NCBI GenBank assembly: GCA_017558065.1
Contig: JAFYWK010000071.1
Location: 1-43,693, forward strand
From: Paludibacteraceae bacterium
GTDB taxonomy: Bacteria; Bacteroidota; Bacteroidia; Bacteroidales; Paludibacteraceae
Direction: 5' to 3'
DNA: 43,693 bases
Shown: in pieces, positions 11,603 through 43,524 of the stretch
Numbering within the stretch: position 1 is the stretch's first letter
How the letters are laid out: each line of letters starts with the position of its first letter
Notes under the pieces: generated by a model
The model's database searches: none
Told to the model about the DNA's origin: nothing
What the model saw: only the letters and a program-made list of their open reading frames with translations
Position numbers and translations under genes: made by a program

Positions 11603-11608
11603 CAGCGT

Positions 11609-11716
11609 CTTAGGGTAAGTCCTACACGACCAGCTCCCTCTGAACTCCCCCAGGTCCTGACCGAAGCAAGGGTAAGAGGTTGTAGCGGTGCGATGTAGTC
11701 AGCTTACCCTTTTTTT
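11609..11716 (+). ncRNA. ffs: Small bacterial signal recognition particle RNA (4.5S-like)
   Basis: This is a roughly 100-nt RNA gene with its own promoter. Its ends pair (GGGTAAG 11613-11619 with CTTACCC 11703-11709) and a T-run follows at once, acting as terminator. The middle carries the domain IV signature CCCCAGGTCC then GAAGCAAGGG, with the AGG/AGCA internal loop that binds Ffh. Flanking CCTCT and AGAGG segments can pair. In place of the common GGAA tetraloop the tip reads TGAC or CCTG, depending on how it is drawn. The RNA works with Ffh and FtsY in co-translational targeting to the inner membrane. Confidence 0.85.
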
Positions 11717-14239: not shown

Positions 14240-14992
14240 ATGAAAAAGACAATCGTATTAGCCCTTATGGCTATGGCTATTGTAGCCGTTCCAGCAACTG
14301 CGCAAACACGCAAAGACAAAAAAGCAGCTGAGAAAGCACAATGGGAACAACAACAGAAGTTTGCTGCCGAAGAGGCTGCACTCCGCCACCAAATGAAGAT
14401 GGATAGCCTTGCTAATGCTCAAAAGGTAGCAGAAGAGCAACGCAAAGAGGCAGAAAGAAAAGCTGCTGCAGAGAAGGCTGCTGCTGATGCACAAGCCAAA
14501 GCAGAGGCAGAAGCACTGGCAGCGCAAGAGGTAGAGATCTCAGAGCCTTGCGAGGAGTATTATAGCACTAAAGAGCTGATTCGTGGACGCGGTGTAGCTG
14601 AGTCACCTATCCAACAAGTAGCCATGGCACAAGCGCGTGTGTTGGCAGTGGAAGAGTTTGCTGCTCAAGTACAAACAACAGTGCAAGCAGTGGCTACTAA
14701 CAATATGGCTGCTTTGAATGGTGCAAATGATATGAATGTTCAAGTATTATTCAATGATAAGGTAAAAACTATTGTCGATCAAACAACAGGTTTCCGTATT
14801 GTATGCCGCAAGACCACCACATTCATGAAGAGTGGCAAGAAAATTTACAAACACTATATGGTGGTGGAGTTGGATATGGAAACTATCATGCAACCTTTGT
14901 ATAATGAAATACAGAAGGATCAAGCTACCAAATTAGAACTATCACTCGAAGAGTTCAGCGAGGAGTTTGAGAAGCACTTCCCAATCAACTAA
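14240..14992 (+). CDS. Exported LPP20-like protein with coiled coil
   Basis: This 250-residue protein has a signal peptide (residues 1-22, cleaved after ATAQ). A long charged Ala/Glu/Lys/Gln coiled coil follows (about 25-95). The globular domain (about 105-250) contains RGRGVAESPIQQVAMAQARVLAVEEFA, which resembles the LPP20/FlgT-like fold also seen in the protein at 20355-21434. It is likely periplasmic or outer-membrane associated. It is the first gene of the plus-strand block leading to the DGR, 80 bp before the CsgG-like gene. Function is not known; the family resemblance is by motif pattern only. Confidence 0.65.
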   Translation: MKKTIVLALMAMAIVAVPATAQTRKDKKAAEKAQWEQQQKFAAEEAALRHQMKMDSLANAQKVAEEQRKEAERKAAAEKAAADAQAKAEAEALAAQEVEISEPCEEYYSTKELIRGRGVAESPIQQVAMAQARVLAVEEFAAQVQTTVQAVATNNMAALNGANDMNVQVLFNDKVKTIVDQTTGFRIVCRKTTTFMKSGKKIYKHYMVVELDMETIMQPLYNEIQKDQATKLELSLEEFSEEFEKHFPIN

Positions 14993-15072: not shown

Positions 15073-15948
15073 ATGAAAAAACTTTTATTTCTTCTACTAT
15101 CAGCACTTTCTGTTGCTATTTTTGCACAAGAGAAACAAGTGGCTATTCTTGAACCGATAGCGATAACTCCTGAAGTTACGCTCATGCATTGTTCTATGGT
15201 GCGTGGAGAAATGGTTAAAGTAATCGGACGCCAAGAAGGTTATGCAGCATTTAACCGTGCGGACATTGACCAAATCATGAAAGAGCAAAACTTTCAACAG
15301 TCGGGAATGGTGGATGATGCTACGCGTAAACGCTTAGGTGCGATGCAGGGAGTTGACTGCGTATGTATCACCAAAATTACAAAAGAGGGAAATAATTACT
15401 ATTTGGAGGCAAATCTGGTTGATATTGAATCTGGACAAATATCTAATCCAGCGACACAATACGGCGAACTACAAGGTGGTAGTTTGGCAAACATGCTTGC
15501 TGCGTGCGAAAAATTAGCTGCAGAATTAGTAGGCAAGACGGTACAACGTACTACTATATATACAGTACCAGCCAGTATAGACACTCAAACAAATAACCCT
15601 TCATCTCCTCAACCTGTCGCAAAGCAAAATAGTACTGAAGAATTGAATAAAAATACTTTACACGAAAGCACAGATTTAGGAGAATATCGCATTAGTCTTG
15701 ATTCAGCTAAAATAGAACTACAAAAAATAATATTGAATCCTGCACTTCATACGAAATTTATATCAAATCCTGAATTGGGGAAAGAGTTAATGTCGAAACC
15801 AGAATCTGAATATATGTCTGTGTTGCAGTTAGAACTTTCAAAAGGAACTCCTAAGAAGCAAGCAAAAGAGATTGCAAAACAAGCAAAAGATAGCATAACT
15901 GTGATGGTGTTGTTAGATTATGTCAGACGAAATCCAATCGGTGATTAA
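15073..15948 (+). CDS. Exported CsgG-like protein, paralogue of DGR target N-terminus
   Basis: This 291-residue protein has a signal peptide (MKKLLFLLLSALSVAIFAQ) and a domain (about 22-160) with KQVAILEP, YAAFNRADIDQIMKEQNFQ, RKRLGAMQGVDCVCITKI and NLVDIESGQI. That pattern is typical of CsgG/LpoB-like periplasmic or outer-membrane assembly proteins. The same domain, with a nearly identical signal peptide, opens the next gene (15989-17269), so the two arose by tandem duplication. The C-terminal 100 residues (Ser/Thr linker, then a Lys-rich helix) are unrelated to the lectin-fold tail of the neighbour. It is likely cotranscribed with its neighbours (40-bp gap). Its function is inferred only. 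Confidence 0.7.
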   Translation: MKKLLFLLLSALSVAIFAQEKQVAILEPIAITPEVTLMHCSMVRGEMVKVIGRQEGYAAFNRADIDQIMKEQNFQQSGMVDDATRKRLGAMQGVDCVCITKITKEGNNYYLEANLVDIESGQISNPATQYGELQGGSLANMLAACEKLAAELVGKTVQRTTIYTVPASIDTQTNNPSSPQPVAKQNSTEELNKNTLHESTDLGEYRISLDSAKIELQKIILNPALHTKFISNPELGKELMSKPESEYMSVLQLELSKGTPKKQAKEIAKQAKDSITVMVLLDYVRRNPIGD

Positions 15949-15988: not shown

Positions 15989-17269
15989 ATGAAAAAACTT
16001 TTAATCCTTTTACTATCTGCGCTTTCAATGATAGCTTATGCGCAGACACCAGTAAAAAAAGTAGCCATCCTCGAAACGGTGGATAAAATGGGCAATGTGC
16101 CTTATGGTGTGTTGCTGCAAGTACGAAGTAGTTTAACCTATGCAATCTCCAGCAATGCGGGCTACGAAGGCTACGACCGTGTGGATATGTCTGCCATTAC
16201 AGGCGAGCAGAATTTTCAACGAACAGGTATGGTGAGTGATGAACAAATCAAGCGTTTGGGCGAGATGACGGGCGCAGCGTATGTACTGATTGCGGAGGCA
16301 GCCCTCTACGATGACCAAAACATTATCATCGCAGCCAAGATTCTGGATGTTGAAACAGGTGGTGTAATGAGTAGTACTCCTCCTGCTGTGGCTCCTAAAG
16401 ACCCAATGAAAATGGCAGAGGCATGTATCAAATGCTCGCAAACATTGGTCGGTGGCAAAATGCCAATGCGCACAACCACCACTACCACTTATTCCCAAAC
16501 GGGCTATGCTTCGCAACCCGCTCCTGCCGCTAATCAGGACTTTACCGAAACCGCTTGGGGCGTCAATATGAAGATGATTTGGGTAGAAGGCGGCGATTTC
16601 CTCATGGGCTGCACTTCCGAACAAGGTGGTGACTGTAGTTCCGATGAACAAAATGTCCGTCGCGTAACCGTGGATGGATTCTATATCGGTATGTTGGAGG
16701 TTACTCAATCCCAATGGGAGAAGGTAGTAGGTACGAGCATCTACCAACAAAAATCCAAAGCAGGAGGTAGCAGTACCCCCGGTGTAGGTCCTGATTACCC
16801 AATGTATTATGTGAGTTGGGATGAGGCAATGGAGTTCTGTCGTTTATTGAGCAACAAGACAGGTCGCACCTATACCCTGCCTACTGAGGCACAATGGGAA
16901 TATGCCGCTCGTGGTGGCAATAATAACGAGGGCGCAAAATATGCAGGTAGCAATATGATTGATGCCGTAGCTTGGTACACCGACAATAGTGGTAGCAGTA
17001 CCCATATCGTGGGCTCAAAGCGTGCGAATGCTTTGGGTATCTATGACATGTCGGGTAATGTATGGGAGTGGTGCAAAGACTGGTACGCTAACTCGTATGT
17101 CAGTTACGATACCAACAATCCTGTAGGTCCATCGTCGGGGTCCTACCGCGTGAGTCGGGGCGGTAGCTGGTGCAGCAGTGCTTCCTGCTGTCGCGTTGCC
17201 GACCGTTACGGCAACTCTCCTGGCGATCGCGGCAGCTACCTTGGGTTCCGTGTTGTTCTTCTCCCCTAG
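15989..17269 (+). CDS. DGR target: secreted CsgG-like/FGE-sulfatase (C-type lectin fold) protein
   Basis: This 426-residue variable protein is the target of the retroelement. A signal peptide (1-20) is followed by a CsgG-like domain (about 22-160: KKVAILETVD, GYEGYDRVDMSAITGEQNFQ, AAKILDVETG), a Pro/Thr linker and an FGE-sulfatase domain (about 190-426). The latter shows LPTEAQWEYAARGG, MSGNVWEWCKDWY, RGGSW and GFRVV; its C-type-lectin fold is the usual scaffold of DGR proteins. The last 45 residues are encoded by the VR (17131-17265). Residues Y386, S389, C395, S396, C400, D405, Y407, G408, D413, G415, S416 and Y417 correspond to Asn codons in the template; only N409 is unchanged. It probably displays a variable binding face outside the cell. 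Ligand unknown. Confidence 0.93.
   Translation: MKKLLILLLSALSMIAYAQTPVKKVAILETVDKMGNVPYGVLLQVRSSLTYAISSNAGYEGYDRVDMSAITGEQNFQRTGMVSDEQIKRLGEMTGAAYVLIAEAALYDDQNIIIAAKILDVETGGVMSSTPPAVAPKDPMKMAEACIKCSQTLVGGKMPMRTTTTTTYSQTGYASQPAPAANQDFTETAWGVNMKMIWVEGGDFLMGCTSEQGGDCSSDEQNVRRVTVDGFYIGMLEVTQSQWEKVVGTSIYQQKSKAGGSSTPGVGPDYPMYYVSWDEAMEFCRLLSNKTGRTYTLPTEAQWEYAARGGNNNEGAKYAGSNMIDAVAWYTDNSGSSTHIVGSKRANALGIYDMSGNVWEWCKDWYANSYVSYDTNNPVGPSSGSYRVSRGGSWCSSASCCRVADRYGNSPGDRGSYLGFRVVLLP
17131..17265 (+). repeat. DGR variable repeat (VR)
   Basis: This 135-bp segment pairs with the TR at 18848-18982 (offset 1717). There are 16 differences, all at TR adenines (11 A-to-G, 5 A-to-T), and the 106 non-adenine positions are identical. 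The invariant last 28 bp (17238-17265) are the likely initiation-of-mutagenic-homing (IMH) region. Just outside the 5' edge three more adenine mismatches (17128-17130) suggest homology may reach 17126. Confidence 0.97.
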
Positions 17270-17300
17270 TTTATTGTAGTCCAAACTTTGCCATAAGCTA

Positions 17301-17373
17301 ATCAAAGCAATACAACGAGGCGGAGTGGGCAAGGGACGAAGCCCAAACAACGCCGAGAAAGTATTGCTTTGAT
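17301..17373. other. Nested hairpin/cruciform downstream of VR
   Basis: A perfect 13-bp stem (17301-17313 with 17361-17373) encloses GGCG/CGCC (17319-17322 with 17351-17354) and TGGGC/GCCCA (17326-17330 with 17341-17345). It begins about 35 bp after the VR. In the Bordetella phage DGR a hairpin just downstream of the IMH is needed for efficient retrohoming; this is the positional equivalent. There is no T-run, so it is not a typical terminator. Confidence 0.8.
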
Positions 17374-17389
17374 AAAAAACGAAAAAGAT

Positions 17390-17860
17390 ATGCAAGTGAA
17401 ATTATTTACCATTCCACTATTTGACAACGAAACCGAACTGAATGAGATGAATGGCTTTTTGCGTGCGCAAAAAGTGCTGACCATTGACAAGCAGTTTGTT
17501 TCGTTGGGCGAAAATGCATATTGGTCGTTTTGTGTTACTTATCTGCAATTATCTAAAGCATCTTCTGTTGCTCAAAATGCGCAACGACCAACGAAGGTTG
17601 ATTACAAGGAAGTGTTAGATGTTGCTACCTTTGCGGTCTTTTCTACTTTGCGTACTATTCGCAAGCAGATAGCAGAAAATGAGGCTATTCCTGCATATGC
17701 AGTATTTACAGATAGTGAGTTAGCCGAAATAGCGAAGTTGGAAAATATAGATATGGCTCATTTGCAATCTATACAAGGAATAGGGCAAAAGAAAGCAGAA
17801 AAGTATGGGCAAATCTTGTGTGAACAATACCACACACAAATGGGATTGAATGAGGGATGA
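17390..17860 (+). CDS. DGR accessory protein with HRDC domain
   Basis: The ATG at 17390 is preferred over an upstream in-frame TTG, which lies in the hairpin arm. The 156-residue protein starts MQVKLFTIPLFDNETELNEM, the N-terminal pattern of DGR-linked HRDC proteins. It has a C-terminal HRDC domain (about 90-150) with AIPAYAVFTDSELAEIA and LQSIQGIGQKKAEKYG. HRDC domains bind nucleic acid in RecQ and RNase D. In DGRs lacking the classic Avd barrel, such a protein is thought to assist the reverse transcriptase. It overlaps the RT gene by 4 bp (ATGA), so translation is coupled. Confidence 0.88.
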   Translation: MQVKLFTIPLFDNETELNEMNGFLRAQKVLTIDKQFVSLGENAYWSFCVTYLQLSKASSVAQNAQRPTKVDYKEVLDVATFAVFSTLRTIRKQIAENEAIPAYAVFTDSELAEIAKLENIDMAHLQSIQGIGQKKAEKYGQILCEQYHTQMGLNEG

Positions 17861-18870
17861 AGCGCGTTGGCTTTTTAATAGAGCAAATAGCGGATATGGA
17901 TAATCTGCGCCTTGCTTTTTACAAAGCGCAGAAAGGAAAACGCGGAAAAAGAGAGGTAATAGAATATCGTAATAATTTGCAGCAAAACCTGAAGTTATTG
18001 CATGAAAATGTATTGAGTGGTGAAGTGCAGGTGGGAGAATATCACTTGTTTAAGATATTTGACCCCAAAGAGCGTGTGGTATGTGCTGCTCATTTTAATG
18101 AAAGAGTACTACACCATGCAATAATGAATGTATGCGCTCCTTATTTTGATAAGCATTTTATCGCGACTACCTATGCCAATAGAGAAAACAAGGGCGTATA
18201 TAAAGCATTGGAGTTGGCACATTTAGCCACGGCACGGCATATGTTTGTGGCAAAATTAGATGTTAGAAAATACTTTGATACTATCAACCACGCGGTGCTC
18301 AAGCAGTTGTTGAAACGACTATTTAAGGATAAATGTTTGTTGCAACTATTGGGAAGAATCATTGATTCATATTCCGTGGAAGAGGGTAGAGGGTTGCCGA
18401 TTGGTAATTTAACGAGTCAGTATTTTGCCAATTATTATTTGTCGGGGCTTGATCATTATGCGAAAGAGGTGTTGGCTGTACCAATATATATCCGCTATAT
18501 GGACGATGTTTTGCTATTTGGGGATGATAGGAAACGCTTGCAAGAGCAAGTAAATGCTGTGATTTATTATGCTTCAGAATGTTTACATTTGCGGATGAAA
18601 TCGCCTATTGTGCAACCAACAAGCATACCAATTGCCTTTTTGGGCTATCGGTTGAAAACGAATTATATTGGTCTAACCCAGCGTAGTCGCAAGCGTTTTG
18701 AGAAGAAATATGGTCACGCAATAAAGATGTGGGATAAAGATCGATGGAGTGAGGAAATGGTGCAGGCGCATATATTGCCATTGCTTGCTTTTGTACGATA
18801 TGCCTACACTAAGAAATATAGAAATGTGATACTTGAAAAGGTGGAAAATCGTCGGGGTCCAACCGCGTGA
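17857..18870 (+). CDS. DGR reverse transcriptase
   Basis: This 337-residue RNA-directed DNA polymerase copies the TR RNA with errors at adenines. RT motifs are in order: [10 protein letters not shown] (about 134-143), LPIGNLTSQ (180-188) and the catalytic RYMDD (213-217), then LGYRL (about 265-269). The LPIGNLTSQ form of motif 4 is characteristic of DGR enzymes. There is no maturase or endonuclease domain, so it is not a group II intron protein. The start overlaps the HRDC gene by 4 bp. The last six codons and the stop (to 18870) lie inside the TR, so RT and template share sequence. No nuclease or integrase is nearby. Confidence 0.95.
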
Positions 18871-18982
18871 ATCGGGGCGGTAGCTGGAACAACAGTGCTT
18901 CCAACTGTCGCGTTGCCAACCGTAACAACAACTCTCCTGGCAATCGCAACAACAACCTTGGGTTCCGTGTTGTTCTTCTCCC
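18848..18982 (+). repeat. DGR template repeat (TR)
   Basis: This is the invariant donor copy of the VR. In the VR reading frame it encodes 13 AAY (Asn) codons, and its 29 adenines cluster there. Twenty-three bases at its 5' end overlap the 3' end of the RT gene. The 28-bp 3' block (18955-18982) equals VR 17238-17265; homology then stops. The RNA made from here is the mutagenic template. Confidence 0.97.
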
Positions 18983-19255
18983 AAAGCTTATGGCGAAGAT
19001 GGATGTCTGCAATAAACAGATTTTCTCACCTATCTAACATGTTAGATAAAATGATATTGTTAGATAAAACGAACGGTATTATACCGCCTAAAGAGCGTGT
19101 TGGTAGGTCAAGGGATATTGATTCGAAGACTCAATCTTTATACAACTGAACTCAATAGAATAATAATAATCGTTCTTTGACATATTGAATATTTCTATCT
19201 ATTGCGGTACGAAATTTGTAGCAGATTTGTAAAATCATGCAAATCGCACAAATTA
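18983..19255 (+). other. Noncoding tract after the TR, with palindromes
   Basis: No coding frame is supported. It contains an 18-bp perfect palindrome (19031-19048), a repeated 12-mer TGTTAGATAAAA (19040-19051 and 19058-19069), and CGGTAT-T-ATACCG (19074-19086). It may be the 3' part of the TR RNA, which in studied DGRs extends past the TR into a structured spacer used for priming. Confidence 0.5.
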
Positions 19256-19365: not shown

Positions 19366-19396
19366 TTGCACATATACATTTTTTTTTGTATCTTTG
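19366..19396 (+). promoter_or_regulatory. Promoter of kinase-like gene
   Basis: TTG (19366-19368), a 20-bp spacer and TATCTTTG (19389-19396) fit the Bacteroidota consensus. It fixes the downstream start at 19419, since an in-frame TTG at 19386 lies within the promoter. Confidence 0.75.
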
Positions 19397-19418
19397 CAGC
19401 GAAATTGAGGATACTACT

Positions 19419-20237
19419 ATGTCTAATCAAGATTTTTGGCATTCAATACAACAGATCATCAACAACAAGTTTGATGCGGAAGGTCTTGCTAAATTGGAGT
19501 ACTATGCAGAACAATTTATCAGCAACAAGTTGGTTTATCAACGATTTTCACCGTTCGAACAGCATGGCTGCGCAACGGGAGGTGCAACGCATGTCATTGC
19601 AACCTTGCTCGCGGGAGCAGAAGTTGATGCAGATAGCATCACTGCGCCAATCGGCAGTTTCAAAAGAGAACAGCAATGCGCAGAGGCGCAAATGGAACGG
19701 ATAAAGCAGTGGGCTATTGCTACAAACTGCTGGATTGATAATGTGGACACAACATTATCTAATCTATTAGGAGAACAAATAGCAGAAGGTGGCGAAGCAC
19801 ATGTGTATGATCATGGCACTACGCTAATAAAAATCATAGGATTGGATTATTATATACAACCTGTTTTAGCGTTAGACCGTATCACTTTGCATAATGCATT
19901 TTTTCCAGAGACTCGCTTGAACGTTATTGGATTTGGATATTCCAATGATGGTGCATTTCAGATTGTAGTCGAACAACCGTTTATTCAAGGTAGTTCTATG
20001 ACCGACGAGGAAATTGCAGCGTATGCGAAGGCAATGGGCTTTGAACTACGTAATGCTCGTAATTGGACATTCGCAACACCAGAGATTTATCTGAGTGATT
20101 TGCACGATGAAAATGTTATTCGTTCAAAGGATGGCAACATTTTTGTAATAGATTGCGACATTCGCATCAATACACCCGAACTCAAGCAAGGTGGTGTTCG
20201 CACACTAACAAACGAGATAATATTCTTAGCAGAATAA
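19419..20237 (+). CDS. Polyvalent-protein-kinase-like protein
   Basis: This 272-residue protein starts at the ATG 23 bp after its -7 box. About residues 100-265 resemble the small kinase-like domain found in polyvalent proteins of Bacteroidota phages and conjugative elements: EGGEAHVYDHG, then TLIKIIG (the Lys suggests the ATP-binding residue), LHNAFFPET, IVVEQPFIQG, YLSDLHDENV (catalytic-loop-like D and N) and FVIDCD (metal-binding Asp). The substrate is unknown. It stands alone, with its own promoter and terminator, right after the DGR, and may be cargo from a mobile element. The N-terminal 100 residues match nothing I recognise. Confidence 0.65.
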   Translation: MSNQDFWHSIQQIINNKFDAEGLAKLEYYAEQFISNKLVYQRFSPFEQHGCATGGATHVIATLLAGAEVDADSITAPIGSFKREQQCAEAQMERIKQWAIATNCWIDNVDTTLSNLLGEQIAEGGEAHVYDHGTTLIKIIGLDYYIQPVLALDRITLHNAFFPETRLNVIGFGYSNDGAFQIVVEQPFIQGSSMTDEEIAAYAKAMGFELRNARNWTFATPEIYLSDLHDENVIRSKDGNIFVIDCDIRINTPELKQGGVRTLTNEIIFLAE

Positions 20238-36681: not shown

Positions 36682-36777
36682 GTATGCGTATTCAAAAATC
36701 AACAAACATAAATCAAATAATTAATCAACGGAATAAGCCGAAAATCCGATAAAGAGTAGGCAAAAAAAGATATAATT

Positions 36778-43445: not shown

Positions 43446-43451
43446 GTTTTG

Positions 43452-43524
<73 letters not shown>

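Follow-up and report, generated by a model that had tools for sequence, protein, structure and literature searches.

An HRDC-type diversity-generating retroelement of a Paludibacteraceae bacterium with complementary sequences 3' of its template and variable repeats

Described systems and the Paludibacteraceae locus

In the diversity-generating retroelement (DGR) of Bordetella phage BPP-1 an adenine of the spacer RNA primes the complementary DNA (cDNA), and RNA and cDNA remain linked; the process is helped by a stem-loop that follows the variable repeat (VR), preferred targets have the cDNA-complementary strand as lagging-strand template, and the route of the mutated cDNA to its target is described as incompletely understood (PMC12875486; what is said here of published systems draws on excerpts of the papers cited). 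Either avd or HRDC is named as the DGR accessory gene (PMC3240598), and cassettes whose template repeat (TR) overlaps the reverse transcriptase (RT) gene form a described group (PMC3521204). Here we analyse a DGR on contig JAFYWK010000071.1 of a Paludibacteraceae bacterium (assembly GCA_017558065.1), of which the whole stretch of 43,693 nt is called the window. About 33 nt directly 3' of its TR are largely the reverse complement of about 31 nt 3' of its VR; such complementarity recurs across DGRs typed as HRDC-only, where it probably serves to dock the template RNA on the target.

The DGR of Treponema denticola (TvpA and kin), with its HRDC accessory and FGE-type targets, shares with the window element an HRDC gene overlapping the RT gene, FGE/C-type-lectin targets, a C-terminal VR and remote targets, but its accessory gene lies between TR and RT, whereas the window has the order VR-HRDC-RT-TR (PMC4891356). 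BPP-1 shares adenine-specific copying from TR to VR, a homologous RT, a VR at the target end and a hairpin after the VR; it differs in having Avd, a TR before the RT and a hairpin immediately after the VR (PMC3240598, PMC12875486). The original prediction, made from the window alone, had likened the element to that of BPP-1, and this stands for the DGR class as such; it does not extend to accessory and layout, with an HRDC gene here, no Avd detected at the window locus by an iterated profile model, and the TR after the RT. The parts of the element are as follows.

15989-17269, + strand: target gene, 426 aa (PF03781, 1e-50), with the VR forming its C-terminal end
17131-17265, + strand: variable repeat VR1, 16 differences from the TR, each at a TR adenine
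17269-17299, + strand: proposed target-side pairing block, reverse complement of 18985-19017 with wobbles and few mismatches
17301-17373, no strand assigned: hairpin or cruciform site, a 13-bp perfect inverted repeat plus an inner stem (DNA fold z -7.24)
17390-17860, + strand: HRDC accessory gene, 156 aa (PF00570, 2.7e-15)
17857-18870, + strand: DGR reverse transcriptase gene, 337 aa (RVT_1, 2.4e-13)
18848-18982, + strand: template repeat, overlapping the RT frame by that frame's final 23 nt
18985-19017, + strand: proposed pairing block on the template side, immediately behind the TR, the candidate RNA partner of 17269-17299 and of the block after the second variable repeat, VR2

An HRDC-type DGR with two targets

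The prediction of a complete DGR was confirmed. Aligned without gaps over 135 positions, TR and VR1 differ at 16 sites, all of them TR adenines (11 A to G, 5 A to T); the non-adenine positions are identical throughout (106/106), and 12 of the 13 AAY codons of the TR in the VR frame are changed. The chance of all 16 differences falling on 29 of 135 sites is 2.9e-13. TR/VR likeness extends a few nt past the repeat ends (AGCTTAT after the TR, AGTTTAT after the VR). As predicted, the HRDC and RT genes lie between VR and TR; they overlap by 4 nt, as such genes overlap in T. denticola, and VR1, HRDC, RT and TR run in the same direction. The HRDC profile matches the RecQ HRDC structure 1wud (3.2e-17). 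The VR lies inside the coding sequence of a ligand-binding fold: by Pfam it closes a C-terminal FGE-sulfatase or C-type-lectin-like domain, and the best PDB match of the target is 2y3c, T. denticola variable protein 1 or TvpA (1.5e-35). What we read as a signal-like stretch stands at the target N-terminus, and we class the target as a surface-type gene.

The RT carries the motifs LPIGNLTSQ and YMDD, with GNLTSQ and YMDD being invariant or majority columns in a 12-row alignment. Its closest solved chain is 8ub7 (4.7e-41), which is the BPP-1 Brt protein (4.5e-230 over 328/328 residues); a group II intron RT follows far behind (3.4e-13), and identity to the BPP-1 RT is 33.8% over 284 residues. 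The best RT match in NCBIfam is a group II intron RT model at 92.5 bits against a cut-off of 300, the retron St85 model reaches 42.4 bits against 235, and no DGR model is among the matches. An Rfam scan of the window, the only search made for an intron or ribozyme, gave no group II intron RNA, and no retron RNA at gathering scores. A group II intron or retron identity was rejected, with models far under their cut-offs and no matching RNA in the Rfam scan. A quick tree, built with no group II or retron rows, places the window RT among DGR RTs with TR/VR pairs. It holds 89 RTs, and a branch of support 100 sets the 40 HRDC-only rows apart from the rest; early offshoots within this group are L063 and the two Planctomycetota loci L064 and L066, and DGRs with separate HRDC and bAvd genes fall near it, in an exact order that is weakly supported. 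The adenine-only differences and an RT nearest to that of BPP-1 support a complete DGR, and the locus is confirmed from its sequence as an HRDC-type DGR, to this extent a further example of a described class.

The window genome (83 contigs, 2.44 Mb) was searched with its own TR, which returned the TR, VR1, two short matches at chance level and one more full match on another contig. This second repeat, VR2 (G000:C5:63022-63165, L003; L019 8028-10166, minus strand), differs from the TR at 17 of 135 sites, again all TR adenines (10 A to T, 5 A to G, 2 A to C), and closes a 712-aa frame that encodes PEGA and FGE domains. In both repeats, then, variation within the 135 nt falls on TR adenines only (16/16 and 17/17). 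The stretch of about 109 bp behind VR1, which includes the inverted repeat, has a copy of 94% identity behind VR2 and no other found in the genome; the 13-bp inverted repeat is absent after the TR. Because VR2 is found in trans and the RT occurs once in the genome, one TR appears to serve two genes. The second VR, the 13-bp inverted repeat and the complementary flanks were no part of the original prediction. In the metagenome-assembled genome (MAG) G058 of the closest relative the same query gave the TR and VR1 of that genome only; its contig C17 also carries a second, different DGR with the TR before the RT (L048).

Signs of copying come from L051, a locus of a buffalo caecum MAG with an RT 97% identical to that of the window. 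The target genes are 87.8% identical upstream of the VR, and the two VRs differ at 14 of 29 adenine sites and at 2 of 106 non-adenine sites. Of the latter two changes, that at position 48 is common to TR and VR of L051, and that at position 67 is confined to its VR; a change common to both repeats and so few non-adenine changes in the VR are what recopying of the VR from the TR would be expected to give. All 48 nt of 18983-19030 are identical between the window and L051.

Complementary flanks in HRDC-type DGRs

Loci were gathered by searching genomes and viral contigs for RTs, a TR/VR pair finder was run on them, and accessory genes were typed by iterated profiles. The VR 3' flank was then scored against the reverse complement of the TR 3' flank and compared with 1000 dinucleotide shuffles, with repeat ends shifted where sense similarity continued. 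Left out before counting were 12 loci taken to be duplicates, pairs with at least 4 non-adenine or fewer than 7 adenine differences, short flanks (L205) and at least 13 loci in which the finder saw no TR/VR pair; the difference limits removed the HRDC loci L183 (15/500 shuffles), L207 and L208 (0/500 each).

For the window blocks 17269-17299 and 18985-19017 no shuffle reaches the score (0/1000), and the predicted duplex has -39.1 kcal/mol. HRDC-only loci gave 43 pairs at 41 loci (42 pairs without L214+, a spurious antisense pair), with 0/1000 shuffles in 32, fewer than 10 in 36 and fewer than 50 (p<0.05) in 40. The corresponding numbers for the 64 pairs that are not HRDC-only are 0, 3 and 5; fewer than 10 shuffles are reached by none of the 8 pairs with HRDC plus Avd, by one of 19 in the Avd class (BPP-1, 9) and by two of 37 with neither gene, the non-HRDC loci L199 and L201 being among those with p<0.01. 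Median predicted duplex energies are -42.9 kcal/mol in 40 HRDC pairs against -14.5 in the 64 others. Pairing starts sharply at the TR edge, the fraction paired being 0.38 at position 1 and 0.80 at position 2. In the 108 nt that follow the block, folding is stronger than in shuffles (z < -2) at 36 of 40 VR loci, compared with 12 of 39 on the TR side. Hairpin loops after the VR (window 17328-17345; L054, L055, L060) are purine-rich and alike by eye, for example AAGGGACGAA, GAGGGACGA and AGCGGAG. An open reading frame script has the target frames of L053, L058, L059, L060, L217 and L222 continuing for 27-59 nt beyond the TR/VR match, so that translation may reach into the pairing block at these loci.

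The complementarity is specific to each locus and co-varies. Outside the f136 genomes (22 genomes, one family), flanks score a median of 35.5 with their own partners against 14.0 with partners from other loci (754 comparisons), and the own partner is strictly best in 22 of 28. At least three Watson-Crick pair types occur in 27 of 32 paired columns. Wobbles outnumber A.C/C.A mismatches 44 to 4 (binomial p 1.5e-9), or 27 to 4 without the f136 rows (p 3.4e-5), p values that are too small in that related rows are not independent; counted by locus, the ratio is 24 to 0, and 13 to 0 without f136. This asymmetry fits TR-sense RNA on the target sense strand and not the pairing of two complementary strands. 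A strand-symmetric mutation bias is unable to yield it, and it points to pairing between TR RNA and the VR sense strand. Judged from these alignments, such pairing is well supported. Several other sources of the signal were rejected: common descent of the flanks, with sense-direction alignments at chance; a hairpin of the VR or TR flank, with median self-fold z of -0.63 and 0.12, respectively (z < -2 in 6/40 VR flanks); cDNA pairing with the other target strand, where wobbles would become A.C mismatches; and pairing in the 5' flanks, with scores at chance level. An intrinsic terminator after the VR was likewise rejected, no T run being seen by eye behind the hairpin in the window.

Targets away from the RT carry the block as well. 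In the f136 genomes the TR query gave 2 to 20 matches per genome, TRs included; the highest counts, which rise to 20 TR-like matches per genome (e.g. G773), suggest that some HRDC-type DGRs may serve many targets. We fetched 60 stretches lying on other contigs or at other places, of which 6 were TR-like and were dropped, leaving 54 remote VRs. Complementarity is reached by fewer than 5 of 500 shuffles in 41 of these and by none in 37, their pairings hold 57 wobbles against 13 A.C/C.A, and by eye the block ends at the motif GAGC, beyond which sequences diverge. Non-adenine differences have a median of 15 in VRs with low pairing scores (n=11) against 7 in the others compared (n=39; p 1.2e-4; 4 of the 54, with scores of 20-24, are in neither group), with a Spearman coefficient of -0.46 over all 54. 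More non-adenine differences in low-score VRs fit a need for the block.

As far as our searches reach, complementary TR and VR 3' flanks appear to be new: the excerpts of open-licence DGR literature searched hold no mention of them, and an earlier description elsewhere is possible.

A docking reading and its rivals

In the reading that we favour and consider probable, the element is an HRDC-type DGR whose TR-flank RNA docks beside the VR, on the sense strand of the target. As in the known DGRs to which it is homologous, the RT is taken to copy TR RNA with errors at adenines, and the copy to take the place of the VR in the final part of a lectin-like target gene. The RNA that immediately follows the TR would pair over about 30 nt with the sense strand that immediately follows the VR and so dock the template RNA, or the RNA-cDNA product, beside the VR; the cDNA, pairing with the same strand, would thereby be delivered in place, and the hairpin or cruciform directly beyond the block may keep the sense strand open. 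Docking is favoured because cDNA and spacer RNA would pair side by side with the same sense strand. We infer that the partner would be target DNA rather than messenger RNA (mRNA) and that pairing would be needed for homing. Group II introns, whose RTs are kin to those of DGRs, find DNA targets by RNA-DNA pairing. Group IIC introns also use a stem-loop in target finding (PMC3240598).

A number of observations weigh against this reading. Among remote VRs, 13 of 54 have no significant complementarity, 39 that keep the block still differ from the compared TRs at a median of 7 non-adenine sites, and the link between score and decay may reflect nothing but age, since a dead VR loses the one feature as well as the other. 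HRDC-only L063 and L066 lack significant complementarity (180 and 106/1000 shuffles), and it is weak in L064 (11/1000), L181, L188 and L217. The pair counts were made on alignments chosen for pairing, and pairing with the sense strand fits mRNA equally to DNA. In BPP-1 the stem of the post-VR hairpin tolerates sequence changes that preserve its pairing (PMC3240598), and flank complementarity at this locus (L175) is borderline at 9/1000, which argues that the pairing step is not general to DGRs; we judge the latter value to be chance because six nearer relatives (L132-L134, L136-L138) lack the complementarity.

An mRNA partner is at the centre of one alternative, in which TR RNA pairs with the 3' untranslated region of the target mRNA, tethering the machinery to a transcribed target or regulating either RNA. 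Sense-strand pairing with wobble would suit it, as would the one direction common to VR1, HRDC, RT and TR; we regard it as unlikely, as the block stands at the VR edge also in targets on other contigs and some target frames run past the VR end (L053, L058, L059, L060, by 27-59 nt), points that still leave room for RNA pairing. Somewhat less credible to us is that the block acts as a primer-binding site, a nick at the cruciform base leaving a sense-strand 3' end that pairs 3' of the TR and primes cDNA into it. The 3' end of the duplexed target strand does abut the TR 3' end, where pairing starts sharply, and the stretch behind the block is rich in hairpins (z < -2 in 36/40); but a sharp edge is expected regardless, the TR itself being unable to pair with the flank, we noticed no conserved cleavage motif behind the block, more cuts would be needed to turn the product into a replaced VR, and in BPP-1 the spacer RNA itself primes (PMC12875486).

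That the element is an ordinary DGR, and that its complementarity plays no part in homing but stems from hairpins that resemble each other behind TR and VR, or from an ancient inverted duplication, seems to us very improbable. The flanks do share a few starting nt (AGCTYA, AGTTYA) and VR flanks self-fold weakly (median -8.8 kcal/mol), yet this folding has a median z of only -0.63, sense similarity is at chance, and the complementarity, with its wobble asymmetry, persists despite widely differing sequences between loci. Least credible of all is an inactive remnant in the window: the assembly is a draft, but the RT, HRDC and target frames are open, neither VR1 nor VR2 has a non-adenine difference within 135 nt, and a TR change has been carried into the VR of the relative L051.

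Beyond docking as such, we put forward a wider picture tentatively, and on balance doubt it: HRDC-type DGRs would make a target-colinear RNA-cDNA that sits, in the manner of an Okazaki fragment, on the template of the lagging strand; its RNA would act as address tag and the target would be chosen by RNA-DNA pairing, an arrangement that would have arisen around the loss of Avd. The spacer RNA would here be complementary to the post-VR sense strand and be joined on its 3' side to VR-complementary cDNA. DGRs with both HRDC and bAvd (L071, L072, L073; L046 and L224 by iterated models) share the HRDC accessory and a DGR RT but have a separate bAvd gene, Pfam-confirmed in L071, L072 and L073, and flank complementarity at p<0.01 in 0 of 8 pairs. 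It is possible that the latter three loci are intermediates, and a possible order of events is that HRDC was gained beside Avd, Avd was then lost and pairing was gained.

Surroundings of the element and meaning of the pairing

Two frames (14240-14992 and 15073-15948) lie directly upstream of the target gene and have no Pfam match at 0.001. Directly after the TR stands a Kinase-PolyVal gene (19386-20237; PF18762, 2.2e-46), of a family named for polyvalent proteins of mobile elements. RNAs in the window are a Bacteroidales small signal recognition particle RNA (11606-11713), a DUF805b cis-regulatory RNA (36728-36762) and a tRNA-Thr (43451-43524).

If the docking reading is true, a 30-nt complementarity that links RNA flanking the template to DNA flanking the target, kept in remote targets, would make the cDNA-delivery step directly testable in another DGR class and would suggest a substitute for Avd. 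The pairing would also help to locate remote target genes and offer an addressable tag for directing hypermutation. Altogether, pairing between the template side and the target side suggests how such elements may find the gene that they rewrite.

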